A DNA stretch of 64,000 nucleotides from Panopea generosa (taxonomy: Eukaryota > Mollusca > Bivalvia > Adapedonta > Hiatellidae). Positions 7,295 through 52,400 of the stretch are shown one piece after another. The stretch spans positions 15,800,482 to 15,864,481 of the forward strand of contig CM055897.1 in NCBI GenBank assembly GCA_029582155.1, read 5' to 3'. The translations under genes and the position numbers were made by a program. Position 1 is the stretch's first letter. Every line of letters starts with the position of its first letter. A model generated the notes under the pieces. The model saw only the letters and a program-made list of their open reading frames with translations, ran no database searches and had not been told where the DNA came from.

Positions 7295-7380
7295 AAGATC
7301 CCCACCAGGACTTGAACCTGGAGCTCTTTTCAAACAGAAAAGTGTGCTAGCTTACACTATAGAGATGTACCCCGACACCA
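7295..7380 (-). repeat. tRNA-like SINE head, minus strand
   Basis: The minus strand reads GGGGTACATCTCTATAG, then a D-arm-like segment, a 5-bp anticodon stem with a loop giving GTT, and a perfect T arm (CCAGG TTCAAGT CCTGG). The acceptor stem does not pair properly, so it is a tRNA-derived repeat head rather than a working tRNA gene. Confidence 0.55.
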
Positions 7381-10178: not shown

Positions 10179-11606
10179 TCAAAATGCTCGTGGTTTAGTG
10201 TGCTGTAGCTGGCTAACTGCAAGCTTGAATGAATCAAAGTCTTGCAGGAGTACAACATCTGCAGGTAACGAGTTCCACTGTACTATAGTAAGGGGAAAGA
10301 ATGAATACTTGTAGTAATCAACACTAGTGTGAATCTGTTTGAAAGACATAGAGTGACAATACCTTGATACCCGGTGGTTAGCTTCAAAGTAGTGAGGTAT
10401 AGAGATGGCGACCAACTCATGAACAATTTTGTAAAGGAGGCATAAACGCGAATCTGCCCGGCGCTGCTCTAAGGTTCTCCAACCCAGAATTTCTAACATG
10501 TTAGTAACACTGGAGTAATGGGAATAATCATTCATGGTCCAGCGTGCTGCACGTCTCTGAACTCTTTCAAGTTTGTCAATATTGGACCTGGTTTGGGGGT
10601 AAAAAATCGTACTTGCATACTCTAACTGGGGGCAGACCAAGGTTTTGTAGGCATGCTCTCTGATCTTGGGTGACTTTACCTTGATGTTCCTCTTGACAAA
10701 GCCTAGGGTGCTGTTGGCCTTGGCTGCAACTCTGTCTATGTGGGTGTTCCATGACAAATTATTTGAGATGTATACACCAAGATAGCGAGCATTCTCAGTT
10801 GTCTTTAGAATCTGTCCATGAAGTATGTACCTTGTGGGTTTGGGTTTTTTCAACCTTGTTATGTGGACAACTTCACATTTTGATGGATTGAATTCCATAT
10901 CCCACAAGGCTTCCCATCTCTGAAGTTTGTCAAGGTCAGTCTGTAAAGTCTGATTGTCTGTCTTGTCATCGTTGATCGTAAGGTATACAGCTGTATCGTT
11001 TGCGAATAGCCTTACTTGTGAGGTGATACTTTCGGACAGATCATTAATATAGGCAAGGAATAAGATAGGACCCAATACAAAACCCTGGGGTACCCCTGAA
11101 GTGACTTCAGTTTTATCAGATTCCTCACCCTCAATAACTACAGTCTGCGTCCAATCACTGAGAAATGCTCTTATCCAGTGTAGAGAGTTACCTTGGACTC
11201 TATACGACTTGAGTTTGCGGAGCAGTTTCTCATGATTAGCCTTGTCAAATGCCTTGCTAAAGTCTAGGAGGATGAGGTCTGTTTGCTTACCTTCGCTGCA
11301 ACATTTTGCCAAATCCTCTACTAGCATAGCAAGTTGTGTTTCACAAGATCTTTTCTCTCTAAAACCATGCTGCATGTCATTTAGTATGTTGTTTCTGTTC
11401 AGATGCTTGACTAAGTTTGAGGCTACTATATGCTCAAGCACCTTACAAAGAATGCAGGTGAGAGAAATTGGGCGGTAATTAGCCGCAACTGATCTGTCTC
11501 CCTTCTTAAAAAGTGGTGTCACGTTTGCTGTCGTCCATTCTTTTGGTACTTGGCCCTGTTCCAATGAGAGCTGAAAGATTACCTTTAAGATTGGTGCAAC
11601 CTGCAA
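10179..11606 (-). CDS. LINE reverse transcriptase ORF, 5'-truncated, catalytic Asp changed
   Basis: This is a 475-residue frame of a non-LTR retrotransposon ORF2. Visible RT motifs in order: PLFKKGDRSVAANYRPISL (about 31-49), the GFREKRSCETQL block (81-92), motif A LLDFSKAFD (113-121), motif B GVPQGFVLGP (171-180), and motif C as FAND (201-204) where FADD is expected. It continues through the thumb region to YKYSFFPLTIVQWNSLP near the C-terminus. The G-to-A type change of the first catalytic Asp to Asn in motif C should abolish polymerase activity. The endonuclease domain is absent. It acts in reverse transcription at the target site in intact relatives; this copy should be dead. Confidence 0.85.
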   Translation of the reverse strand: MQVAPILKVIFQLSLEQGQVPKEWTTANVTPLFKKGDRSVAANYRPISLTCILCKVLEHIVASNLVKHLNRNNILNDMQHGFREKRSCETQLAMLVEDLAKCCSEGKQTDLILLDFSKAFDKANHEKLLRKLKSYRVQGNSLHWIRAFLSDWTQTVVIEGEESDKTEVTSGVPQGFVLGPILFLAYINDLSESITSQVRLFANDTAVYLTINDDKTDNQTLQTDLDKLQRWEALWDMEFNPSKCEVVHITRLKKPKPTRYILHGQILKTTENARYLGVYISNNLSWNTHIDRVAAKANSTLGFVKRNIKVKSPKIREHAYKTLVCPQLEYASTIFYPQTRSNIDKLERVQRRAARWTMNDYSHYSSVTNMLEILGWRTLEQRRADSRLCLLYKIVHELVAISIPHYFEANHRVSRYCHSMSFKQIHTSVDYYKYSFFPLTIVQWNSLPADVVLLQDFDSFKLAVSQLQHTKPRAF

Positions 11607-11614
11607 TGCAGTCT

Positions 11615-11662
11615 GGGACCGGGGTTAATTTGTACATCATGGGACAAGGTCACCAGTAATAA
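11615..11662 (-). other. 2A-like ribosome-skipping motif in the LINE N-terminal frame
   Basis: The minus strand encodes LLLVTLSHDVQINPGP. The DVxxNPGP core matches the 2A consensus apart from Gln at the usual Glu site. 2A-like sequences are known near the start of APE-type non-LTR elements from several marine animals, with a hydrophobic Leu-rich lead as here. Activity is not implied by sequence alone. Confidence 0.6.
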
Positions 11663-13597: not shown

Positions 13598-13682
13598 AAT
13601 ATGCAACCAGTCCGGGACTCGAGCCCGGGACCCTGCGCTTACAGGACGAATGCTCTACCGTCTGAGCTAACCGAACCGCTTA
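13598..13682 (-). repeat. tRNA-Thr-like sequence, probable SINE head or tRNA pseudogene
   Basis: The minus strand starts GGTTCGGTTAGCTCAGACGG. It has a recognisable D arm, an anticodon loop CCTGTAA (anticodon TGT, Thr) with C where U33 is expected, and a strong T arm (GTCCCGGGCTCGAGTCCCGG region). The acceptor ends pair poorly. A GA/AT microsatellite follows on the tail side, as in SINEs. It is less likely to be an active tRNA because of U33 and the acceptor stem. Confidence 0.5.
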
Positions 13683-26829: not shown

Positions 26830-29800
26830 GTATGATTGTTCAAGCCAATGTATATTTTTGGAGGTATGATTGTTCAAGCCAAATTATATACTTTGGAGGT
26901 ATGATTGTTCAAGCCAATGTATATATTTGGAGGTATGATTGTTCAAGCCAAAGTATATACTTTGGACGTATGATTGTTCAAGCCAAAGTATATACTTTGG
27001 ACGTATGATTGTTCAAGCCAAATTATATACTTAAGAGGTATGATTGTTCAAGCCAAAGTATATACTTTGGACGTATGATTGTTTAAGCCAATGTATATAT
27101 TTGGAGGTATGATTGTTCAAGCCAAAATATATACTTTGGAGGTATGATTGTTTAAGCTAAAGGTTATACTTAAGAGGTATGATTGTTCAAGCCAATGCAT
27201 ATATTTGGAGGTATGATTGTTCAAGCCACTGTATATACTTTGGAGGTATGATTGTTCCAGCCAATGTATATATTTGGAGGTATGATTGTTCAAGTAGCCC
27301 GGCAGGATAGTGAAAAAATCTTTCAGTTAATGATGCAAGCATGAAACTTATCATACCTAAAGTTTAACTACTCCTAAATTGGAAAAACACATTAGCCACG
27401 TGAAATTTTCGTTACGGCGGCCATTTTCCAAGATGGCCGCCAAACCCTTGATTTTCATTGTATTTACCTATGGTACGTTTCGGTTTTGTGTTACTGTTGT
27501 GTTCGGAAACATTGTACTGGAATATAAATGGTTTCTGTGGACATATATAATTATAAGCTTTCTAAACATATCCAGTAATAAGGTTTTAGAAGTGTTTTTG
27601 CGAATAAAATAAAAGAAAAGGTTCCTCTTCCCATAATTATTTAGTAGAATTTTTATCATTTTTTTAGGAAATGTGGAAGATAACCAAATTAAAGCTCATA
27701 ATACGTATCTTTTATGTCTGTTTCTATTTAGGGTAATAGTAAAATTGACAACAAGTGAGATTTAAGCGTCAGAAAACTATTTCATAACTATGAAAAGAAG
27801 AAAAACGGAAACTTTAAAATTAAAAAAAATTTCTAAAAAAAAAAAAAAATCAATGTCGTGTATCTACGGACTGTAAATGAAAATATTTTGTCAAATTAAT
27901 AATTAATTTCTTAATCAAGTTGATATATCGGTCTTACTAACCCTTATAACAAAAATAATATATATAAAGAGTGGTCGTCAAAGCACAACCTGGGCATACT
28001 GGTGACGCCACTGCTGTGAAACTCAGCATGGGGTCCAGTGTCAGCTATTTTTTTTTAATTTTAGTATCCCAAATGCTATCAAGCTTGCCCCACATACATT
28101 ATCGCCATGGTAAATCTTGTATGTTTGTAAGATAGCCGCACCTGAATTGACAGGGTATGCCAGCGCGGGAGAGCCGAGCCAAGGATAACGGGGCTTTAGT
28201 TATCCGGAAGGTGTACAGATCGGACGGGATTTAAATGGCACTGGATGAACGATCGGGCTAGATGTAGGGCTTTTTTATTTTGGTTCGAATCTAGTTGTAT
28301 CCCATACACCAATGTGCTTGTTATTTTTTCAAGGTGGTAAAAGGATAACCCCTCGGCCTTGGATTATCAGATATACATTTTGACAGCAATTGTTTATATT
28401 GAAAATAATCTAAATGATGACAGATTCGACGGTATTATCGCTATCTAAAGTAATTGATTGGCAGAAATGTTGTCTGTGTCAAACCGTCAAAGATGAGGAT
28501 CTGAAATCTCCCCCTTCGAGGTATGAGGTGACACCAGATAGGGATGGCTATGCAATGATAGCAAGGAATCTTTCCTTATTTAAAGAAATACATCAGTTAC
28601 CGATTATACTGGAACCAAAACGGTTAGACGATGGAGATGGAATAGCAGAGACCTTAAGGAAGAACAAAGCTGTATACCATCAGAGCTGTAGACTCCTGTT
28701 TAGTAACAGCAAGCTTGAGAGGGCGACGAAAAGGTCAGCTGGTCCCAGTAAGACTGTGAAAATTCCCGAAAAAACTAGACGGATGAGCTTGGAAACTCAA
28801 GTATGTTTTTTTGTGTGAAAAGAAAGATCCGTCGCATGATCTCCGCCGTGGCATGACAATGGAGTTAGACAAGAGGCTGAACGAATGTGCAAGGACTCTA
28901 AATGATGGTAGACTTCTAGCAATTTTAAGTGCAGGAGATGCTGTCGCCCAAGAACTACAATACCATCGGTCGTGTTTAACAAAACTTTATAAAGGGAGAG
29001 GTCACATATAGTTATAGAGGAAAATATACCAAATGAAGACAGATATTTATATCCTCAAGTTTTCTCCGAGCGTCTTGTCTACCTTACAGAAACCATAACA
29101 AGTAGCAATGAGCCAGTGTTGTTTCGATTAGCAGATTTAGTCAGTCTCTATCGGCAACGATTGATACAGCTCGGTGTTGACGACCCTAGTATTAATTCAA
29201 CAAGACTGAAAGAACAATTATTATCTGAAATGCCCGAATTAGAAGCGCATAAAAAGGGGAGAGATATACTTTTAGCATCTACTGAAGATGTTGGTTCAGT
29301 TTTATCAACGGCCATGGATTATACTAAAGCCATCATTATCACCAAAGCTGCAAAAATCATACGAAAACGTATGATCGATTATAAGTCCTCTTTTTCTGGA
29401 ACATTTGATGACAGTTGTGTAGAAGATTCAATTCCATCTGTACTTCTTCAGTTTGTTTCTATGATAGAGCATGGGGCTGACATTAAATCTCAGCTACGAT
29501 TTGGAGCGTCTAAAACAGATTTGGCATTATCTCAGTTGCTTCAATATAACTGCTACACAAAATATCAAACTGAAGGAAAACTGTTACGGCATTCAAAAGA
29601 TCGTGAAACCCCTTTTCCTATATTTCTTGGACTGTCAGTATACTCGAAGACCAGAAAGAAACACCTCGTCGAATTGTTACATGATCATGGCCTAAGTATA
29701 TCTTATGACAGGGTTCTGGAAGTTTCTGCTCAACTAGGTGATGCTGCAGTTGACAAATACAAGGCAGAAGGCGTTGTATGCCCAAACATCTTAAGAAAAT

Positions 29801-32800
29801 CTGTGTTCACTACGTCAGCTATGGATAATATTGACCACAATCCATCAGCCACAACAGCCATATCGTCATTCCATGGCACGAGCATATCAATATTCCAACA
29901 TCCCTCGGCAGGACATGAAGGAACTTTGCAAGAACGATGCCAGATTGATACGAAAGTAAAGACAATCTCCAAGCTTCCTGAATCGTACACAAATGTTCCG
30001 CCCGCTTTCTTCGGGAACAAAAATCCTCAACCTCCACATGTCGAAAGCCCAAACCTTCTTACGTCTGTTGATCTTAAACCGGATTTCGAATGGTTACAAA
30101 AGGTGTGTCTTTCTGACACGGTTAATTCTGATAGAGTTGACATATCATGGGCGGTCCATCACGCTTCAATGAAGAGAGGCCCTTCATTTGAGGTTACCAT
30201 TACATCATTATTGCCACTTCTAAGGGAACAAGCTCATTCTGTTGCAACCATTTGTCATTGCTTGAACAAAATCAAGGAAGTTGTATCTCACCTGAATCCG
30301 GGTCAAGTTCCTGTGGTAGCTGCTGATCAACCAATATTTGCCACAGCAAAACAGGTTCAGTGGCACTGGCCAGACAAGTACGGCGAAGACAGATTTGTGA
30401 TTATGTTTGGTGGACTTCATATTGAAATGGCTGCTCTGAAATCGTTAGGTACTCTGTTGCAAGATAGTGGATGGACTACTGCTCTTGTAGAATCTGGAAT
30501 AACAACTACCGGTACTGCCGATTCATTCCTTTCTGCATCAAGTGTGACAAGGACACGTCAAATGCATCAAGTGACAGCTAGTTATCTGTATAAGCTTTTG
30601 AAGGAATCTTATGAGGCATATGTAATTGAAGTACGGACTGATGATCAACAGGAACAAAGTTTCGAAGATTGGTGTGACATGCGCAAGACCCAGAGCCCGC
30701 AATTTCAGTATTGGTATTTGATATTTGAAATGGAACTTTCAATATTAGCCCTGATAAGATCTTTCAGAGAGGCAAATTTTGACCTGTATTGCCAAGCTTT
30801 GCAAAAACTAATACCATTCTTCTTTGCAAACAACAATATCAATTACGCTCGCTGGTTACCAATTCATCTCAGAGATATGTTACGTCTTGGTAGCACTCAT
30901 CCTCAAATAAAGAGTGAATTTATCAAGGGCAATTTCGTAGTTCATAAATCCAAACGTGGATTCTCTGCTTTGGCAATGGATCAGGCCCATGAACATGCAA
31001 ACGCTGTCATTAAGGGAGAAGGTGGGGCGATCGGTATTACAGAAGATCCCTCTGCGCTTAGAAGATGGATGGTTGCTGGTCCAGAAATAAGCCATCTTGT
31101 CAATACGTATGAGGGGATTTCTGAACAGAAAGAAGCAAACGAAGAAGAAAGGCATCTTGAACAGACTACTCATGCACAAAGAACTTTCTTGGATCGCGTC
31201 TCAAAGTTGTACAACATTATAAGAGAGATGGATAATCCCTTCATGGAAGAATCAAAAGATCTGTTGACTATTGATTCAAAACAAGTTGCCCACCCGAGTG
31301 TAGCTGAAAGGCTTGCAACTCATTATGAAAAGGGCAAGGAAAAATTTGATGAATTTATAGCCAGTCTGTCTCCTGGATCAGAGAGCAAGTTTTATGACCC
31401 GATAAAGAAGCAGAAGTTAGCTTTTTTCTCTCAAAATCCAGATGATTCATCTAAAGATATGAAGCAGAAAATACTGAAAGACGATTGTGCACTCTTCCCA
31501 CAGTTGTTCATATCTTGCCAAGCCAGAGACTGTGATTTGAATGACTTTTTCAAACACGAGAATCAACCTTTCCCTGCAGCCTTGAGTGATGGTGGTAGAC
31601 TCCATTCATGTCAGAAATCCCAGCTTGCAAGTATTCTTGAGGATGCAGCAATAAATTCTGATGAAAGTCCTGAAGTAGAGGCATTGATTATTGATGGTTC
31701 AGCATTAGTAAATTCAATAACACCCAGAATCTCAAAAACATTTGATCAGTATGCCGAACTTGAGGTCCTTCCTAAAATGCAAAAGTATAGCTCAACATAT
31801 GCTAGAACTGATATTGTGTTTGATGTTTATAAACCACAAAGCCTAAAAGCAGAAACTCGCTCGAAAAGAGGCTTCGGGACACGCCAAAGAGTAACAGGAA
31901 GAGGAAAGGTTTCCAAGAATTGGCATAGTTTTATGAGGGACAGTTCAAATAAAACCGAGCTCTTTGAGTTCCTAGCAGATAAGATTGCTGAAAACTGCAC
32001 AGGTAACGTTGTTTATGTTACTCGAGGAGAGAATGTTATTTGCAATCAGATGGTTGATGTGGATCATTTGTCTCCTTGCAATCATGAGGAGGCTGACACA
32101 AGAATATTTGTACATGTCAAACACAGTATTGAAGAAGGAAAGAAGCGAGTTATGATTAAGGCAAATGACACAGATATTTTTGTAATTGCTTTGAGCGTTT
32201 TCTCCAATCTCAAAGAACTAGGCTTACAACAACTTTGGATTGAGTTTGGTACAGGCAAAAATTTGAGATGGATACCTGTGCATGATATTACTAATGGTAT
32301 CACGCAGGAAAGGTCGAAAGGTATTTTATTTTTCCATGCTTTCTCTGGGTGTGATAATGTATCAGGTTTTAAAGGGAAAGGCAAGAAATCTTTATGGCAA
32401 ACCTGGGATGTGTGCCCAGATGTATCTTATGTGTTCAAGAAGTTAAGTAGATATCCCCCAGTAGTAGATGAGATGGATATTCAGATCCTTGAGATGTATG
32501 TTGTTTCCCTATACGACAGATCAAGTCCTGTGACAACCGTTAATGAAGCAAGATTTGACATGTTTGCTCGAAAACAGCGTTCGTTTGACGCCATTCCACC
32601 TACCAGATCAGCATTAGTTGAACATATAAGAAGGGCATCTTACCAGGCAGGTTGCATTTGGGCCCAATCCATGGTATGCATAATGGAAGAAACCAATCCA
32701 AGTGACTGGGGTTGGACGCTTAAAGACAACACATGGAGTGTTGTGTGGACTACACTTCCTCAGATCGCAGATTCGTGTAAACAACTAACCAAATGTGGTT

Positions 32801-35800
32801 GCAAGAAAGAATGTCGAGGCCGATGCAAATGTCACAAACTGAGTTTACCTTGTACTGCTCTTTGTAGTTGTATCTGTGATACATGTAGTTAGTTTAATTA
32901 GCTTGGATTGGATTGGATTGATGCCAGACACGAACTCAAAAAGGGGTTTGTTCAATATTGTATTATTTATTGTGTGTACATATTCTTTAATTTAGTTCTA
33001 AATGATGTAGAAAGGCTGTTTGCCTCTTGAAAACTGTTTAGTTGAATAATGTTCATTCTGGAGGAGATTTTGTTCATTGAATATATTGTATTGTTGTTAT
33101 GTATTAGATAATTTAGATTTTTTCCCGCCAATTTTAGTTCAAAATGGCCGCCAAATGTAAGATAATGATGGCTTTTGCATATTTGTGTTGAAATGTGTAT
33201 ATAGTAAGGTCAGATACTAAGAATTGTAACATTTTATACGTCTGTTGGAATTTTAGGTGCGATTTAGACTGTTTCTCCTTTAAACCTGCATTCAATGTCC
33301 GCCATCTTGAAAAATGGCCGCCATATTGAACTTTTTTCGTGGCTAATGTGCTTTTTTGTCAGAGGGATAGATGAGCTTAATTCATGCAAAATTTGGTGCT
33401 TGCATCATTAAGTGAAAGATTCTTGTGATATTTTGAGTTAAGCTGCCCAGCTAAAGCCAAATTATATACTTTGGAGGTATGATTGTTCAAGCTAATGTAT
33501 ATATCTGGAGGTATGATTGTTTAAGCCAATGTATATACTTTGGTGGTATGATTGTTCAAGCTAATGTATATATTTGAAGGTATGATTGTTCAAACCAATG
33601 TATATACGTTGGAGGTATGATTGTTCAAATTAGTGTATAAATTTGGAAGTATGATTGTTCAAGCCAAAGTATATACTTTGAAGGTATGATTTTCATACCT
33701 GTTTTTACACAAGGACACGACAAATCAGTACCTTATACATGTACGCCATTTTGTTTCTTATCCGGATAAACAATAACTGGTATGTACACTTGGGCGGAAA
33801 AATAATTTCAAAAGGAAATGTAGTTGTACTCATGCACATTTTGCTTAGAAAACTTGCATATATTCATAAAATAATGAAGTATTTTAAAACAACTTGAAAT
33901 GAAGAATAAAACATACCATTCAACACTTCAACTAGCACATGTTGGTACATATTACAGACGATTGATTTGGCAGTAATTAGCATTGACCAACAAACAATCA
34001 GGCACGCCATAGTGTTGGTCAAGAGCATTCTACAGACCACCCAGAGTCCTGTCCATTTCCACTTCGTAACTACGGCAATGACGCGGCTCATACTGCACAG
34101 ATTGTTCGCAACCTGGCAACTACATGGTTGTAAGTAATGTCAGCTACGATCTGATAGTCACCTGTATTAAGCTGTCATTCTTTTTGTAAATAAACCTAAA
34201 TTTAAGAAGCACGAATTCAATTATTTATTAAAAACCATTGTTTTATTTCGGTTAATCAATACTTCTTTAAAAAGCATGATTAACATTATTTTATCAAATG
34301 CTTTATTTTTATAAATCATCTTGAAATAAATCGAATGATTGACAATTAGAACCTTTTGAGATATGTAACGTACACGTTTCTTTTACCAATAGACAGGTTT
34401 ATATTGATTAATCATTAATAATCACGTGACATGAACTATCAAAACACAAATTACCAGACATAATAAGAAGTCATCGAATATTTGATCAAAACTCTAACGT
34501 AATAAGACATATAATGACTTATGACCTTTTGAAGAGCGAATTATTTGTCCAGTGGTGATGGCATCGGACTGCGAAGGGAGGAATCACAGGTTCGTTTCCC
34601 CGCTCCTCCAGCTAAAAATACTTATCAGTCTTTTAGATGAGTTTTAACAAAAAACAAGGTTCCGTGTATCGGTGCTTTACACCTACACCGGGCATGTTAA
34701 AGAACCAGGGACGCTACAAAATGGTCTTCTGTATCTCTGCACTATCCTTAAAAAATCTAAAATTACTCACCTTGAGGCGTCGTCCATGCAGGAAAACCGG
34801 GGGCGACGATAAACAAACTTATTATTTTCATGATCATCTTCATCATGACCTTTTAAATGAAAGTTAAAGAGACATTTGATTTTCCCTTTATACAGGTGTT
34901 ACCAGCTTTTACTCCATGGAACGTCTGCAGGAGATGCTCAAATGGATATTCGATAAGAACAATCTCAACAGCTTCACGGAACTCGGATTACCTTTAATAT
35001 TACCATCAACACTAAAACGAGTAAGTCACAGTTTTATTCCATTTGTTATACACAAAATGGTGCCTTCCATGTCCAAATCTTCCAAGACGCCAACAGTCAC
35101 AGCTTAAGTTGCGGGTTTGAGTCCAGCTCAATTCAAAACATTTATATGTGAATGTTTGTCAATAACTTGTGTAAAGTCAATGGGTCTACTCAGATTCATT
35201 TATCGGTATGGCAGCTGAGGTCCAGCCCCACCCCCAACCCCGCCCCCTCAGAAGCACCGGATGTCATTTACAGCGGATGACAATCAAGTAAATCGTCAAG
35301 GGATTGTAGATGTTAACGAAGCAATACTTATCAGCCGTCAATACAATATAATTTGAAAACCTAAGACACGTTTTCGTTTCATGTTTATTTTAACATAAAT
35401 ACCCCCCCCCTCCTCCTAACCAGAGTCAACAGCTACCGCGACTCCTTCTTCCCATCTGGCATCGGACTATGGAGCTCCCTCCAAGTCAGACTTCCCATTT
35501 GGCATCATTCAATTGAACTCCCTCTCAGTAATCCGTCCCATCTGGCATCAGACTTGGACCTCACTCCCAGTCCGCATTCGCATCTGGCACCTGACTACAG
35601 AACTCCTATCCAGTCAGCCTTCCCATCTGACATCATATTACGGAACTACTTCCCAGTCAACTTTCCCATCTAGCATCTGACTACGGAACTCCTCCCCAGT
35701 CAGCCTTCCCAACTGACATCAGACTACGGAACTCCTTCCCAGTCAACTTTCCAATCAGGCATCAGACAATGGAACTCCTTCCCAGTCAGCCTTCCCATCT

Positions 35801-38800
35801 GGCATCAGATAATGGAACTCCTTCCCAGTCAGCTTTCCCATCTGACATCAGACAACGGAACTACTTCCCAGTCAACTTTCCCATCTGGCATCAGATAATG
35901 GAACTCCCTCCCAGTTAGCCGTCCCATCTGGCATCAGACTTGGACCTCACTCCCAGTCCGCATTCGCATTTGGCATCTGACTACAGAACTCCTTCCCAGT
36001 CAGCCTTCCCATCTGACATCATATTACGGAACTACTTCCCAGTCAACTTACCCATCTAGCATCTGACTACGGAACTCCTCCCCAGTCAGCCTTCACAACT
36101 GACATCCGACTACGGAACTCCTTCCCAGTCAACTTTCCCATCAGGCATCAGATAATGGAACTCCTTCCCAGTCAGCCTTCCTATCTGGCATCAAATAATG
36201 AAACTCCTTCCCAGTCAGCTTTCCCAGCTGACATCAGACAACGGAACTCTTTCCCAGTCAACTTTCCCATCTGGCATCAGATAATGGAACTCCCTCCCAG
36301 TCAGCCTTCCCATCTGGCATCAGACAATGGAACTCCTTCCCAGTCAGCTTTCCCATCTGGTTTCAGACAATGGAACTCCTTCCCAGTCAGCCTTCCCATC
36401 TGGCATCGAACTACGAAACTCCCTCCCAGTCAGCCTTCCAATGTTGCACCAGACAATGGAACTGTCTCCCAGTCAGCTTTCCCAATTTTGCATCAGAATG
36501 TTAAACTCCCTCCCAGTCAGCCTTCTAATCTGGCACCAGACAATGGAACTCCCTCCAAGTCAGCCTTCTCATCTGGCATCAGACAATGGAACTCTCTCCA
36601 AGACAGCCAATTACTGACGCACCGACCGTCTAAGCTTTCCAAGTTAGGACGTTGCGAAGATAGAGCGAACAGGTGTATGGCGTTTTTAACCTGTTTTTAA
36701 TTTCACACCAGACCCTTCCTCGCGGGTTTATAGTTTCATAATGTGCAAGTATACTCCAGTGAAGCCCTGTCCAGCTCCAAAATGAGGGCATGGATATGTG
36801 CACATGTATATTCTGTGGAGTGGTGGGGTGGGGCGTGTAGGGGCATACTGCTATTTATTTTTTTTCTCGAAAATATGTTAAATATTACTTTATACATTGG
36901 CTGGGTTAAAATCAATCTTTTTCAGCTTATAAAATATACATATATATATATATGTAAAAGTGTGTTGATGTACAGTATACTTTCTTGATATTTTCACACC
37001 TTATTAGTTTAATATAAATATTTTGTTATTTCGCTATAAGATAAAATTATAAGATACATATTTCTCAAGAGTAAGGCATAGTAAAATATCCATATAATCT
37101 TATTTTTTTATTATTGTCTATTGTATAAATACTCACTTGTGATTGGTGAAGAAAAAATGAAATACGTCACGGTTTGATTAGCGTTAAACAGCTATGTATT
37201 GTGGGACAGGCATGGACATCACTGCTTTTTATTTGGGTTGAACAGACTTAATTCGTGAGATACCAAAGACACTGATAGACTAATGTTGGACTGTTGATGG
37301 AAATGAACTGAAACTCACACAGCTATTCTTTAAGAGGTTGCTTACACCTGTCACTGAGTATTATATATATATGTGTATATATGTATATATGACGGTCATT
37401 ACCAGTTATAGTTCATGTTGTCTCTTTGTTCATTTATTCGGTTTTATTCATAAATTCCCTAAATTTCGCTTTCACCAAATATGTGTTTAACATTTTAGAA
37501 ATTGTTGCCTCTTTTTCTTTCCAAAATTTATCATAACTAAAATTGCCTCCATTTTGTGGAAGCTAAGGCTACAATTGAATGATTAATTGAATGTTTAGCG
37601 TCATTTTTATGCCACCGAGGGCTAACATACGATCGGTTAACCTAACCACTGTTTCTTGGGATCCTGAATATTTAACCAGTAATCGAGCACACCCATCTCC
37701 GCAAGTAACTGATAACTTTCCCACTTGAATCAATGGTAAGAGACGAATGATAATGAGATACTATGTCGTATATCAATCATCACGGAGACTGTTGCCGGGT
37801 GGAGATTCGAACTCACGATCCCTGGTTAATGCTACAAAGACGACTAAAGTAGCATAACTTGACTTAATTGTTTTCTTTGCCTTTTGGTTTCAATTCTTTA
37901 ACGTTGTAGGAACTTGTGACCCGAATTGTATATGTATGGCAATAAAGTATGCTTAAATCAATTTTTTTACCCGAATATGTTTTATGATTTGATATTGTCA
38001 ACAGAAAAATTTGACACCTTAATGGTCTTCGTTTACTTCCTCTGTACTTAACCCAATTGTGTAATTTAATGCTACGTTCCCTGTGTGTTATATATTTCCT
38101 AATTTATATACAAATAACTTTTATGTTTCAATACTCTTGTATTTACGATGTTAACTTGCTTTTGTAATTAAGATGTATAATTGCTTTTCCCATAAACATC
38201 GATGTTTTGTTGGAACATCTGATTACTTAACAGCTGTTGCCATTCACTTGTTCAGGGGCAGATCCAGGGTTTCATACACTAAATGATGCAGTCTTATGAG
38301 CAGAATGACTAGATAGCAGGACGTATACTTATGATTGGTTGAATAGTAAGCGTCATTTAAATGCCATCAAGGGTTAACAGACGGTCAGTTACCTAACTAC
38401 TGTTACCTGGGATCCTGAATATTTAACCAGTACTCGAGCACAGCCATCTCCGCAAGTAACTGATAACTTTCCAACTTGAATCAGCGATGAGAGACGGATG
38501 ATAATGAGACATATGTCGTATATCAATCATCGCGGAGACTTTTGCTGGGCGTTGATTCGAACTCACGACATCTGGATTGAAAGTCAGACGCGTAACCGAC
38601 TGAGCCAATCAGGCCCGGCCGAGGCAATAATGTGCCTTGATATCCATTGTAATTCAATTAAACGGTATGTTTGTCCGATTTTAAGCGGTCTGAAGAATGG
38701 GGGGTGACTGCTGAATTTTGTTTAGTAAAAAACAACGTTTTAACGACGGTTTAATGCTATTTTATTAATTGTTCAGCTGGCCAACCTCTGATATCATTAA

Positions 38801-39049: not shown

Positions 39050-42000
39050 ACCAACATGAGAACATTTTATTTCTAGAGTAGAAATTGAACATTTATACCA
39101 TTCAATAGCTACACGTAATTGGTAGTTTTTGCCAAGTTTCAAGTGTCTTCTATAATCACTCTTTTTCATGTGAGAGACTTAATATGGTGCCATGTCCTTG
39201 TTACAACAAAGAGACTATTTTCTTTCTTTTGAGGATGAGGGAAACTTCATATGAAGTCATGTCCTTGTTACAATAGAGAGAATATTCTCCTTCTAACTGA
39301 GGACATGTCATTGTTACATAAGAGAGAATGTTCTCCTTCTGTCTAAGGACGACAGAAACTTAATATGGGGCCATGTCCTTATTACAACAGAGAGATTATT
39401 CTCTTTCTTTTGAGGATGAGAGAAACGTAATATGGGGACATATCCTTGTTACAACAGAGAGATTATTCTCCTTCTTTTGAGGACGAGAGAAACTTAATAT
39501 GGGGACATGTCCTTGTTACAACAGACAGATTATTCTCCTTCTTTCTAAAGACGAAAGAAACTTAATATGGGTACATGTTCTTGTTACAACAGAGTGATTA
39601 TTCTCGTTCTTTTTTAGGAACAGAGAAACAAAATATGGGGACATATCCTTGTTTCAACAGAGAGATTATTTTCCTTCTTTCTAAGGACGAAAGAAACTTA
39701 ATATGGGGACATATCCTTGTTGCAACAGAGAGATTATTCTCCTTCTTTCTAAGGACGAAAGAAACTTAATATGGATACATGTCCTTGTTACAACAGAGTG
39801 ATTATTCTCGTTCTTTTTAGGAACAGAGAAACATAATATGGGGACATATCCTTGTTTCAACAGAGAGATTATTCTCCTTCTTTCTAAGGACGAAAGAAAC
39901 TTAATATGGATACATGTCCTTGTTACAACAGAGTGATTATTCTCGTTCTTTTTAGGAACAGAGAAACATAATATGGGGACATATCCTTGTTGCAACAGAG
40001 AGATTATTCTCCTTCTTTCTAAGGACGAAAGAAACTTAATATGGATACATGTCCTTGTTACAACAGAGTGATTATTCTCGTTCTTTTTAGGAACAGAGAA
40101 ACATAATATGGGGACATATCCTTGTTTCAACAGAGAGATTATTCTCCTTCTTTCTAAGGACGAAAGAAACTTAATATGGGGACATATCCTTGTTGCAACA
40201 AACAGATTATTCTCCTTCTTTCTAAGGACGAAAGAAACTTAATATGGGTACATGTCCTTGTTACAACAGAGAGATTATTCTCCTTCTTTCTAAGGACGAA
40301 AGAAACTTAATATGGATACATGTCCTTGTTACAACAGAGAGAATATTCTCCTTTTGTCGAAGGACGACAGAAACTTAGTATGGGGCCATGTCCTTGTAAC
40401 AACAGAGAGATTATTCTCTTTCTTCTGAGGACAAGAGAAACTGAATATGAGGATATGTCCTTGTAACAATAGAGAGAATATTCTCCTTCTTACTGAGGAC
40501 ATGACCTTGTTACAACAGAGAGACTGTTTTCCTTCTGTCTAAGGACGACAGCAACTTAATATAGGGCCATGTCCTTGTTACAACAGAGAGATTATTCTCT
40601 TTCTTTAGAGGACGAGAGAATCTTAATATGGGTACATGTCCTTGTTACAACAGAGAGATTATTCTTCTTCTTTCTAAGGACGAAAGTAACTTAATATGGA
40701 TAAATGTCCTTGTTACAACAGAGAGAATATTCTCCTTTTGTCTAAGGACGACAGAAACTTAATATGGGGCCAAGTCCTTGTAACAACAGAGAGATTATTC
40801 TCTTTCTTCTGAGGACAAGAGAAACTTAATATGAGGATATTTCCTTGTAACAATAGAGAGAATATTCTCCTTCTTACTGAGGACATAACCTTGTTACAAC
40901 AGAGAGACTGTTCTCCTTCTGTCTAAGGACGACAGCAATTTAATATGGGGCCATGTCCTTGTTACAACAGAGAAATTATTCTCTTTCTTTTGAGGACGAG
41001 AGAAACTTAATATGGGGACGTGTCCTTGTTACAACAGACAGATTATTCTCCTTCTTTCTAAGGACGAAAGAAACTTAATATGGGGACATGTTCTTGTTAC
41101 AGCAGAGTGACTATTCTCTTTCTTCTTAGGACCAGAGAAACATAATATTGGGACATATCCTTGTTGCAACAGAGAGATTATTCTCCTTCTTTCTAAGGAC
41201 GAAAGAAACTATATATGGGTACATGTCCTTGTTACAACAGACAGATTATTCTCCTTCTTTCTAAGGGCTAAAGAAACTTAATATGGGGACATGTTCTTGT
41301 TACAACAGAGAGATTATTCTCCTTCTTTCTAATGGCTAAATAAACTTACTATGGGTTCATGTCCTTGTTACAACAGAGAGATTATTCTCCTTCTTTCTAA
41401 GGGCTAAAGAAACTGAATATGGATACATGTCCTTGTTACAACAGAGAGATTATTCTCCTTCTTTCTAAGGGCTAAAGAAACTTACTATGGGTTCATGTCC
41501 TTGTTACAACAGACAGATTATTCTCCTTCTTTCTGAGGACGAAATAAAAACGTAATATGGGTTCATGTCCTTGTTACAACAGAGAGATTATTCTCCTTCT
41601 TTCTAAGGACGAGAGAAATTTAATAATGGGGCATGTCCTTGTAAAAACAGAGAGATTATTCTCCTTCTTTCTAGGTACTAAAGAAACTTAATATAGGTAC
41701 ATATCCTTGTTACAACAGAGAGATTATTCTCCTTCTTTCTAAGGACGAAAGAAACTTGACATAGGTACATGTTCTTGTTACAACAGATAGATTATTCTCT
41801 TTTTTTCTGAGGACCAGAGAAACATAATATGGGGACATATCCTTGTAGCAACAGAGATATTATTCTCTTTCTTCTGAGGACAAGAGATACATAATATGGG
41901 GACATATCCTTGTTGCAACAGACAGATTATTTCTCCTTCTTACTAAGGCTATGGCCTTGTAACAACAGAGAGATTATTTTCTTTCTTTTGAGGATGAGAG

Positions 42001-45000
42001 AAACTTAATATGAGGATATGTTCTTGTAACAATAGAGAGAATATTCTCCTTCTTACTGAGGACATGTCCTTGTTACAACAGAGAGAATATTCTCCTCTAT
42101 CTTAGGACGACAGAAACTTAAAATGGAGTCATGTTACCACAGATATTTTATTATCATTCTTTCTAAGAGACATGTCCTTGTTACTACAGAGAAATGAATC
42201 CCTTCTTTCTAAAGGTTTGTCCTATCAAGACGGCTAATGTGCTGGCCTCCAAAGTACCCCGTGTTTGTGTCTAAGAATGTATATCGATACGTTTGTAAAA
42301 AAAAGAGTTTTCTTGTAAACAACATTATTAAATCACTCTGAATATAAAAGGAAATCGATAGACGACCAGGTCTCAAAACTCCTCGACTCTTGTGGAGTTG
42401 TGTCTGGGGCATGTAACAGGAGTTCTAGGATACTTAAAATTTAAGTCACTGTAAAAAATATATTGCAGGGTTCAGGTGCACAATTTTCATTCAGCTCAAA
42501 CTCAAATTTGCATTTTAAAGGTACTTTATAATTTGGATATCCAGTCCGAAGCCTAGATCAGGAGTTCAACGTATTCAGCACAAAGGTAAAATAAAATATG
42601 AAAAGAGATCTAACCGCTATATTTGAATTAGGGCTCGATTAGCTCAGTCGGTAGCACGCCCGACTATCAATCCAGGGGTCGTGAGTTCGAATCCCCGCAA
42701 CAGTTTCCATGATGATTGATATACGACATTGCGTCTCATTATCATTCGTTTCTCATCGCTGTTTCAAGTAGGATAGGTATCAGTTACTTGCGGAGATGAA
42801 ATGTACTCGAGTACTGGTTAACCTTTCAGGATCCACGAAAACAGTTGCTAGGTTAACTTATCGTCTGTTAGCCCTCGATGGCAAAAATATGACTCTATAT
42901 ATATCTAATCAGTCCGTCAATCAATCTTATAACTATTAAGTACGATGGCGGTGCTAGGTGGAGCTAAATTGTTCAGGTAATTGATTTCCATTTACCTACA
43001 GTGTAAAGCTAATTAACAGAGTTAACAGAGCAGAGGTTCAACTAATTGAACATTAAGGAAATGTATGAAAAATAATACAATTCGTCAACACTTCAGTTCC
43101 CATAATCTGTGCGATATAACAAGAAATAACTCATTTGGAGTTATATCGAATTGCAAGAGTCTTCTTTACCTGTTGTGATTCGGGTAGGGTTTGGACATGA
43201 AACCGAAAATAGTCAAAAGTTTAGGTAATGTAAATAAGCCTAAAGCTGTTCGGCGAAAGGTAGTATAAGGGGCATAAGAAAAATAATTTCTTCCGAAATC
43301 CAGCAATATTGACGATATAAAATAGTTTAACTTATTAAAATAAAATTGAAATTATGTGGGCATTAGAACGCCTGAGGATAGGTAAGGAATAAACACCTAT
43401 TAACCGAGTTGAATTTGATTTGGAGATATGTTTACGTGTGCGCTTTTGTAAGTTTGTTTTTACCACGGAGCTAGCTTTTGTGTCGGAAGCACGTACGTCT
43501 TTGCTTGGAAGTCTCTTGCGTACTTCTTCAAATAATTTCCACAATAAAGTTTGTAAACGATTCCAAAGTATGCAGTATATATAGCTGCATAAAAAGTGGG
43601 TGTTGGTATACAAAAAGCAAACGTTTAGGTTTTTATTTTGGTCAAATTCTGATAGTTGTCCAAATTCATTCGTGAATGAGTATTTTTATTATTCTTGAAA
43701 CATTTATGTAAATTCAATAAAGCGCATGTTTGCGGTTTGGACACCCTAAGTGTAGAGAAAACGCTAAGGATTGCATATTGGTATAACAAAATCAATATTT
43801 GTTACACTAGGGGTCATAACCGCAACCCTCCCTTAGTGAAACAAAAATGGGTTTTGTTACACTAAGTGTTATTGTTGTGAACCTTAGTGATACCCTAAGC
43901 ATATTTTTTTTGTACATAATTGACATTTGATTATAAAACTGCTTCACTTATGAAATTTGTGAAATTTATTTGTCCCTGCTTTGAAATGGGGACAAAAGTG
44001 TAACACATGTTCGTCTGTCCGTTTGTTATGTTGCGTAGTGCTTCCAATAGGCCTGTGGCATATCGAATTTACACAAAAGAGTTTTCTTATCTGAACAGGT
44101 CTGGTAAAAAATAGTTATTGCTTGTTTCTATTGAGACAAATAAACATATGCATATTTGCAACACAACAGAAAGTGTTGCTCTGTGTTGTCGATGTTTCCA
44201 CAGAATTGTCCATGTATTTCCCCAATGATAAAGAGAGTCGCTACAGTCTGAAGAAGGTAGCTGTCGAGTGATAAAAAATGTTACAACATCATCTTGCGCG
44301 ACTCAGATTTTCTTAAAATAAATCAACACAAGTTAAAAAGTATGTTTTCTTACCGCTAGTCGCAAATCCCACTACCATTCTGCGTTATTCCACCGTCATC
44401 CAACGATACTTCCACCGCCTCGTCCAGAAACGATTGGACACGGTGGTATGTGAGCATTAACATGTATCTACCATTCTTGAACCATCTCTTAACAGAACTT
44501 GAATCACGATTGCTACAAGAGGGCAAACATTTCAAAACGCAATACCTCATTCCAAAACATTCTCCACAAATTAAGGTATATGTATGAATGCTCTATGTTA
44601 ACAGTCTATATAAATCAGAACATTATTTGACACTATTAAATAAAACAATAATTTGCTAAAGTTCCAATTATATTTAATCTATTTTGCACGAGTTTATTCA
44701 TCGCATTGTATAGCAAAGTGTATAACAATAATCGTAAAAGTTCCCATGAATGTGAACAGTGTGTCTTTTTAGTTTTATAGCCGTGGTTGCTAACTAAGAT
44801 TAACATAAGCTGCCCCTTCTTAATAGCAGTAGTTACAAATTTGAATGTTTAGTACAGCCTACTGATTGAGCAAGTACTCGTATAATAGTAAATTCATTTC
44901 AAGTATAAAATAAAATTGTTTAACACAATTTTAAATGTAAATTTGAAAATTTAATATAACTGTAAACAGTAGTGATTCATCATATCCATTTAGTCTTCAT

Positions 45001-49400: not shown

Positions 49401-52400
49401 CCAACTACGAGAGGTCATGAACAATTCAAGTCATTCTGTCGGGCAAACGATATGATGACCTCAGTTACATATGCATCGATTTGTACTCATCATGATTAAT
49501 GTAAGATCAGATTTATTAAGACAATAAGCTGACACCAAAGTATATATTATATTTTCATAGCAATTCCTATTTCGGGTTAAAATAGATTAACACTTCTGCA
49601 TTTGGTGTTAATATTTCTACATCGGGATTATATGCCAATACATTTTATTTGATTTCGTTTGATTTATACATGACGCGATTGTTATTTGTAAAGAAAAAAA
49701 CGTATTTCAATGAATCTTAGTTTAACCTTCCTCCTTCTGAAATTATCTAACAAACTTTCTCACGCAAAGTTTGTTGGACCGAACCGTGCTCTAACTCACG
49801 ATCTGTGAGAAAGCACCATACACCCTACATACTTTATCATCCTTCATACTTTATATTGTATATTGTACATCTTTTCAGTTGACTAAAACTATTTTATAAA
49901 CTAGTTTTTGTATACGGTTAGTTATACATAATAAACATGACAGGAAAGTTTCGAGATCGACCAAACTAACTCCCACAAACCGGCCCTAGTCACGAATTCT
50001 TGGCATAGTATTCCACCAAATAAACTCAAATAAATAAAACCCCAGACAAAGTTGAATGTCCTACTTGGGTTTCATATTTTATTACATTTGCTTATAAACT
50101 TAATAAAACTGCAATGGAATGGCCGACACGTTTGTGTTTTTTAATTGATATGCTTCAAAAAGAATTTCTATGTTTTGTTTGTTTTTCAGAACAAATATTT
50201 CAAGACAGGTGCTTTTCTAATAAACCTCGACATGGCAAGATCATTAGACTGGATTGGTGTATTGCGAGACATTGCGGAGGATGCACACAGTCCACAGAAA
50301 AGCACGGTACTTATAATTAGGGTTGTGGAGTGGGGTAATACTTATACACACCTGAAGAATAATCGATGAAGACACACTGTAATACTGTGCTGTTGAAGTA
50401 GAACATTTTATTTACCTTGAATTATTATTAATCAATACATCGTTAGTGACATTCTTTAGCCAGATCTCATTACACTACTCTCCATTGTTCTCTGTCAATG
50501 TTTAAGATTTTGCATGGCCTATAGAACGGACTCAGTTCTCCAACATTTGTCCGTTAAATAGAAATTGTTACTAGCACTCTGACTGGTCAGGCTTTTAAGA
50601 TAAAGTTTGACTGACGTCATAGTTAAGTATTATCAAATCTGCTCGCACAATTGATAAAATCAAGAAATGGCGATTTCAAATTAGTTAAGCGGCATCTATA
50701 CTTTTTTTGCTTAAATATATTGCTTAAACTACGTTTATTTGTTGGATTATTTTGCTTGAAAGTAAATGGTTGTAAACAGGAATGTTTTAAAACAATACAG
50801 TTTAAATTAGTAAATAGGTAGTTATAATTTGAATAAAAGAAACATTACAATTTTACCTGTAAATGAAACAATCGCATTGATACAGAAATAAATACTTTGG
50901 TGTTGATAAAAATAAAGTAATGCACTACATTCTTTTATATATCATATTTTCAATCTTAACTCCAATTAATTGTTCATGTTTACTGAAGTTAACAGCTTAA
51001 TCTTTTTAATTAGGCGATATTCATTACGTCTGTGGTTAACTTTGCTTTGGGAAGAAATATACATAACTTATATTTCACCGAATTGATAGACATACGATTT
51101 GCTTCACACCAAATATCAATATCATTAAGATCCGCTTTTAAGCCTTTAACGACGTCTGGAAGAGGAATATTTGAAACTTCGAGCGTAGTATCGTCTGCAA
51201 AAACATCAACGACAGTATTTTGCAATGATAATGACAAGTCATTTATATACAATAGAAATAATAGGGGGCCTAAGACGGTGGCCTGAAGTACATCAGCTTT
51301 GCTGAACCCTGAAGTAATATCAGAAACTTAAGTATAATGAGTTCTCCTTCCTAAATATGAAGAAAACCATTTTTTTTGGTATTACTGTTTAATTTGTACA
51401 TATTCATTTTTTATTACGTACGTCATGGTTAACTATATCAAAGACCTTAGACAAATCAAGATGTAATGTACCAACGATTTTATTGTAATCTATAGCTGTA
51501 AGCAAGTCATCCGATATTTATGCGTGAGCCGTTTGACAAGAATGGTTTGCTCTGAAAAGAGATTGAAGAAAATAAAAGTTTATTTTCTTATACGTATATC
51601 CTAAGATGTATACTAACGGAACTTTCCAGAATATATAATATAATGGGAAAAATTAATATATATAATTTGATTTATCATGTTTTGGTCCTTTTTGCAAACT
51701 GGGACAATTTCAGCTCTTTCAGATAATTTAGGAAATGTATCGGTGTCTTAACTACTATTAAATAGTTTTGTTTGTATTAGAGCTATTGCAGAGGTTGACA
51801 TTTTTAGAAACCTGGCACCTAGGCTGTCCGATCTAGTATAGTGTGCAATGTCGAGACAGTTTAGTTGGTTTTCAGCAAATGAAAATGATATCGCTAGAAT
51901 TTGGAATTGCTGACATTTAACAAACTTCTTACAATTAATATTTACCATATTGGCATAAGATGAAATTGGAGAATTGTCTTAATGTAACGTTTCACGCACC
52001 GTTGAAAATAATAGTTGAAAACAATTGCTGTTTGGCTGTTTGTGACGGACAAGTTATACGATTTCCATCATCATCATCATCCAAATAGTAAGTTTGAATT
52101 TGTGATTTAATCCCGATAAATTGATTTACGATTGTTTTGGATTACGTTTGTTAAAATTAATAGATCCATTGTAATGGTTTTATTTAGCTTGGCGTATAAG
52201 AATGTTGACCTTCTGTCGCCAAAACGTGTAACGTGTAATCAGTATTTTTTTTATAAACTACTTTTATTTCATGACACCAGACTTTCTGTATATATTCAAT
52301 TCGATTGATTAATTTTCTTTACGTGTTTTCTTCTTTTTGGGGCATATCTATCTAATACAGTTTGCATTAAACTGAATAAGTCAAATGACCCTGTTTGTTC

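Follow-up and report, generated by a model that had tools for sequence, protein, structure and literature searches.

The termini of Academ DNA transposons begin with 5'-YR. As described in passages of PMC10045372, elements of the AcademX lineage make target-site duplications of 3 or 4 bp and those of the AcademH lineage of 9 or 10 bp, and the two are linked to a nuclease and a helicase, respectively. Curated Academ consensus sequences from bivalves average 5565 bp according to an excerpt of PMC10294476, and Academ is also mentioned in passages of PMC9783078 and PMC10799480. Here we describe an element in a 64,000-nucleotide stretch of the genome of the bivalve Panopea generosa (the window; GCA_029582155.1, contig CM055897.1, positions 15,800,482 to 15,864,481, forward strand). 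The element encodes, in one open reading frame (ORF), a transposase region, a nuclease resembling flap endonucleases (FEN) and a Cys-rich tail. Because it makes 3-bp duplications and encodes a nuclease, it is best filed in the Academ superfamily, AcademX lineage. We consider the best overall explanation, with a probability of about 0.6, to be that the family is a young, recently active, autonomous cut-and-paste DNA transposon of this lineage and that its nuclease would cut the 5' strand at the element ends.

The 3-bp duplications of the family fall inside the AcademX range of 3 or 4 bp, and the TA found at the ends of all 25 copies compared fits 5'-YR termini. As described for AcademX, a nuclease is encoded and not a helicase. 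The AcademX nuclease is presumably of the XPG type. The lineage, which we compared by its description, thus shares with this element the 3-bp target duplications, an encoded nuclease and a long element; the family-specific sequence, the Cys-rich tail and a dimer described below set this family apart. The fusion of a transposase with a nuclease is itself known in kind, and the family member is new. In the literature searched, Academ and XPG were not found together as whole words, nor was the word DUF6589; a search for XPG, transposase and DNA transposon listed nothing on this topic.

Ends, insertion sites and copies of the element

The complete Academ-type transposon occupies positions 27295 to 33453 of the forward strand (6159 bp), starts with TAGCCCGGCAGG and ends with CTGCCCAGCTA. 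Its host site is a minisatellite with units of about 35 bp, identified by Tandem Repeats Finder (TRF), and the limits of the element follow from the array, which breaks off at 27294 and resumes at 33454. Matches of other copies obtained with blastn stop precisely at bases 27295 and 33453. Comparison of the flanks identified the target-site duplication AAG on the left (27292 to 27294) and on the right (33454 to 33456). Local alignment of the two ends revealed imperfect terminal inverted repeats of about 160 bp (27295 to 27454, forward; 33294 to 33453, reverse), with a score of 91 versus a maximum of 26 in 300 shuffles. Both repeats contain GGCGGCCATTTT-CAAGATGGC-like stretches (27416 to 27441 and 33299 to 33330), which in our view look like YY1-type sites and may be candidate sites for the transposase or a host factor.

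Copies were sought in the assembly (1.47 Gb, 39 contigs). The best 37 of 841 candidates were scored for the protein and the best 40 of 59 for the left end, and the counts are lower bounds. We obtained at least 39 protein matches, with some copies represented by more than one piece, and at least 25 full left ends among 41 rows, the remaining 16 rows being the opposite repeat at 74 to 75%. Each of these 25 left ends is part of a copy with an ORF, and no short non-autonomous derivatives were seen among them. A preliminary description of the window had suggested such a census and a comparison with Academ transposases; the census shows a multicopy element with intact ends, and Academ is an apt comparison.

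When 24 fetched copies were compared with the window copy, the same 16 bases were present at the start and end of all 25, with TA at both ends in each case. An exact 3-bp duplication flanks 22 of the 25 copies or, with the dimer taken as one unit, 23 of 24 insertions; those without a duplication of their own are L023 and the two dimer members. L023/L032 (C12:38602-38610 kb), a decayed copy, is the sole insertion with unmatched 3-bp flanks (TTA versus ATA), possibly as a result of mutation or recombination. We also searched for empty sites with the joined flanks of 11 loci (19 were prepared), scoring the best 40 of 3,996 candidates. For at least four loci (L004, L007, L010 and L015) a near-identical empty site exists elsewhere (best 97 to 99%). 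These sites are of equal length on both sides and therefore hold one copy of the 3 bp.

Across 23 copies, the average divergence between pairs is 0.54%. An uninterrupted frame of 1492 aa is present in seven copies (L002, L003, L005, L007, L009, L012 and L013), and the coding region is intact in 6 of 21 extracted copies, a set without L003 and L018.

The open frame and its domains

The long ORF of the window copy was confirmed at 28993 to 32892 on the forward strand (stop to stop, 1299 aa). It is open throughout the transposase region, the FEN-like nuclease and the Cys-rich tail. Residues are numbered from the GTG at 29116 (1258 aa), with which the residue numbers of the preliminary description agree; the start at 29012 given there is out of frame with the ORF. 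That description had called the protein near-whole, which is apt at 1299 versus 1492 aa in intact copies; the window copy, for its part, does not hold an intact gene. The first 193 codons of the 1492-aa form are absent from its ORF and sit upstream in broken frames. By comparison with full-frame copies, a Cys-rich N-terminal coding piece of 134 aa (CCLC...YHxSC; 28414 to 28818, forward) is in the frame of the long ORF and interrupted. It is followed by an other-frame stretch at approximately 28819 to 28992 (forward), with a second Cys/His module (LQYHRSC) and two frame breaks, as judged from copy comparison. Both N-terminal breaks also occur in L006, at another site, where the duplication is TAA instead of the AAG of the window copy. 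Since the two copies share both breaks and differ in their duplications, a defective copy was probably moved in trans, by the protein of another copy.

The FEN/EXO1/XPG-like core spans residues 850 to 1130 (31663 to 32505, forward) and was delimited by profile comparison, structure prediction, Foldseek and VIA. Judged on its sequence, it is a FEN-family nuclease that looks intact and whose acidic site distant families have retained. The family profile retrieved human EXO1 first among PDB sequences (E 0.023), with the DxD and SGCD of EXO1 in register. For the predicted domain, T5 FEN and Rad2/XPG/FEN1 rank first in Foldseek. With EXO1, FEN1, XPG and T5 FEN the domain appears to share the fold, the order of the acidic motifs and a GxG loop after the last Asp; it differs in being fused to a transposase and in its sequence, which is 8 to 18% identical in the VIA alignments shown, EXO1 being closest. 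The ligand positions on the forward strand are D860 at a strand end (IIDG, 31693 to 31695; model and conservation), D903 (VFDVY, aligned by the profile to VFDG of EXO1 and conserved; 31822 to 31824), the conserved motif E991-E992-A-D994 (EEADTR, 32086 to 32097), D1018-T-D1020 (DTD, aligned by the profile to EDSD of EXO1 and conserved; 32167 to 32175) and D1080 (SGCD), which together with the GKGKK loop (32353 to 32388) is conserved and was aligned by the profile to SGCDYLSSLRGIG of EXO1, its helix–three-turn–helix (H3TH) region. In the model, D860, D903, E991-D994 and D1018/D1020 are located close to the ends of strands or to the start of a helix.

Conservation between families provides further evidence. 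The stretch from 850 to 1130 contains 36 Asp and Glu residues. At 8 of these positions all rows of three further families from this genome also carry an acidic residue, and 7 of these 8 belong to the ligand list of the preliminary description (hypergeometric P 7.4e-6, counted without three of the 12 rows of alignment A2, two of the decayed L037 and one of the frame-shifted L060). Over the same stretch the window protein has 76/269, 67/265 and 69/261 identities with these families (25 to 28%). E991 is not universal, being Q in one of two F4 rows. The proposal of a FEN/XPG-type nuclease with an acidic set and a GxGKK loop thus agrees with the profile, Foldseek, VIA and cross-family comparisons. 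All of D860, D903, E991, E992, D994, D1018, D1020 and D1080 are present as listed; the residue given as D900 is D899. The predicted structure, proposed earlier as a check, resembles a PIN/FEN fold, with low TM-scores.

Several results weigh against this assignment. The match to the EXO1 profile is modest, its single stretch having an E of 0.23. Superposition is loose in the first 16 Foldseek rows (template modelling (TM) score by target length 0.36 to 0.49; root-mean-square deviation 12.8 to 21.9). The mean predicted local distance difference test (pLDDT) value of the model is 55, and the GxGKK region is modelled at low confidence. With decayed rows kept and scoring by family majority, 4 of the 8 ligands pass (P 0.005). 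Changes within the family look near neutral, are mostly singletons and give no measure of constraint, so selection on the nuclease is visible between families alone. Finally, no Pfam family matched the protein (1258 aa) even at E values as high as 10.

Pfam likewise gave no match for the C-terminal 530 aa or for the N-terminal piece, a phmmer search of PDB with the window protein gave three matches only (best E 1.2), and profile A1, built from two sequences, matched nothing in PDB. In viral contigs, 51 pattern matches to two short peptides were found, none of them confirmed. The decayed copy L032 has V at the position of D1080. The C-terminal tail (32788 to 32889, forward) had been described as CXC-like; it is Cys-rich, with a putative likeness in Cys spacing, and the protein has no Pfam match that would confirm a CXC domain. 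The F3 C-termini seen (L061 and L058) have the nuclease, end in an acidic stretch and are without a Cys-rich tail.

The acids proposed for the Asp-Asp-Glu (DDE) site of the transposase region are D237 (AMDN, 29824 to 29826), D404 (ADQ, 30325 to 30327) and E626 (DQAHE, 30991 to 30993), all on the forward strand. D404 and E626 are unchanged in L036, a protein of another family whose frame does not reach D237. By eye, DN is also found in L069 (EFDN) and L071 (IGDN), DQ in L071 and DxxxE in L063, L067 and L071, and D-N, D-Q and DxxxE recur in this order. Protein matches link the families (window to L036, E 3e-77; L036 to F3, E 9e-129). Of eight proteins compared with DUF6589, L065 of F3 is above the Pfam cut-off (28.4 versus 27 bits), L059, L060 and L067 are below it, and the window protein, L036, L063 and L035 have no match. 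DUF6589 matched 71 stretches in this genome, with no match in any of 14 control genomes. The best match, L071 (C28:450800-457800), exceeds the Pfam cut-off and has next to it, in opposite orientation, pieces of DEAD, Helicase_C and RecQ zinc-binding domains, which fits a helicase-bearing, AcademH-like element; a RecQ helicase is named in Academ in a passage of PMC3627910. L071 thus shares DUF6589 with sister family F3, and the three motifs by eye, and differs in that RecQ-type helicase pieces, encoded on the opposite strand, take the place of the fused nuclease of the window family.

Because DUF6589 is present both in helicase-linked L071 and in a nuclease-linked family, it is best read, as a putative assignment, as the Academ transposase core, the nuclease families forming another branch. 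This would give a Pfam domain of unknown function a functional reading. Transposase region and nuclease occur in one open frame in the four families seen (window, L036, L063 and L060). No convincing long terminal repeats were found for L036 and L035 among the 25 longest pairs listed for each. The earlier proposal of a DDE-like region is carried by the conserved motifs and by DUF6589 in a sister family. The RNase H fold was not recovered: the AlphaFold2 (AF2) model from the 14-row alignment A3 had a mean pLDDT of 44, and its 154 Foldseek matches at E up to 10 include none in PDB at E 0.001. Together with this model, the missing DUF6589 match of the window protein, the two matches only of profile A3 to PDB sequences (E 0.28 and 1.2), and the hhalign comparisons of A3, of A2 and of the window protein with L071, which gave noise, argue against the assignment.

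A head-to-tail dimer and the role of the nuclease

Copies L012 and L013 are arranged head to tail on C14 (C14:42426588-42440520; L012, L013, L048). They are 0.07% apart and share 11 variants absent from the other 21 copies aligned, and therefore stem from one element. Their junction, ...CCCAGC-TA-GCCCGG..., has a single shared TA in place of two, and there is one CCT duplication, outside the pair only. Neither member is flanked by a 3-bp duplication of its own, and on this ground a second insertion was rejected as the origin of the dimer; unequal crossover through flanking DNA was rejected because there is no flank between the two copies. The junction is as expected if the 5' strand were cut 2 nt inside each end: the resulting 3' TA overhangs are self-complementary, and their ligation would therefore yield exactly the observed junction, as a circle or a dimer. 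Joining at a 2-bp microhomology is a plainer alternative that explains the junction equally well, and the dimer may instead be an assembly error. A search with exact 10-mers (gap 0 to 30) found no other head-to-tail junction in the assembly. That the 2-nt inner cut was deduced from a single event, and that microhomology accounts for it too, counts against it.

We propose that the DDE region, together with the Cys/His modules of the N-terminus, would bind the element, nick its 3' ends and connect these to target positions 3 bp apart. At both ends the FEN-like domain would cut the non-transferred 5' strand, most probably 2 nt inward of the terminus. Such a cut would leave TA 3' overhangs, and host gap filling would restore the TA and make the 3-bp duplication. 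In Tn7, TnsA acts beside TnsB as the cutter of the second strand, and the FEN-like domain would do the job that TnsA does. The likeness to TnsA with TnsB, and to the flap nuclease of MuA, would lie in a second nuclease activity for the strand that the DDE site leaves unjoined. The nuclease folds of MuA and TnsA are unrelated to FEN. The specific version, in which cuts 2 nt inside the ends produce TA overhangs that give circles or head-to-tail dimers, is put forward tentatively. If it is true, excised elements would close as circles or as dimers able to insert as a unit, donor sites would carry NNN-TA-NNN footprints, and the family would be an animal cut-and-paste system with a DDE-fused flap endonuclease acting like TnsA. 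The young family, with its intact copies, exact ends, DUF6589 link and dimer, makes the role of a flap nuclease in transposon movement testable.

Alternatively, the DDE site could nick the 3' ends only and join them to the target, and the FEN-like domain could trim the leftover 5' donor flaps after strand transfer. Flaps of this polarity are the classic FEN substrate. The Mu transposase is described with its own flap-resecting activity, which acts for infecting Mu, in passages of PMC3325207; there, resection follows joining, and its timing differs from that of the cut proposed here. This path is possible and in our judgement doubtful, for the dimer junction suggests free, double-strand-cut ends, and Mu-type resolution predicts no head-to-tail joining. 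We think it quite unlikely that the nuclease serves as an accessory for repair or copy number, resecting ends or gaps after excision and so favouring homologous repair that restores the donor copy, without being needed for strand cleavage. By profile and by VIA the nearest relative of solved structure is EXO1, which is a resection nuclease, and Kolobok lineages, of another superfamily, have varied accessory nucleases and helicases according to passages of PMC9587614; however, the single open frame for transposase region and nuclease in four families favours action within the transpososome. A vestigial or merely DNA-binding fold, for which the variable E991 and the poorly modelled H3TH region might speak, is very improbable given that three families at 25 to 28% identity retain 7 of 8 ligand positions.

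Other features of the window

Two stretches on the reverse strand have tRNA calls: positions 13604 to 13676 by Rfam (37.4 bits), where ARAGORN made no call, and 7297 to 7366 (tRNA-Asn) by ARAGORN, where Rfam made none. Since neither tool calls the locus of the other, both may be tRNA-derived repeats. Also on the reverse strand, a 481-aa ORF (10179 to 11624) contains the reverse transcriptase domain RVT_1 (E 1.6e-38) and resembles long interspersed nuclear elements (LINE), and an RVT_1 fragment below cut-off (E 1.3e-5) lies at 51010 to 51327. Long minisatellite arrays with units of 68 bp (39301 to 42134) and 43 bp (35448 to 36608) run over ORFs with repeated peptides.

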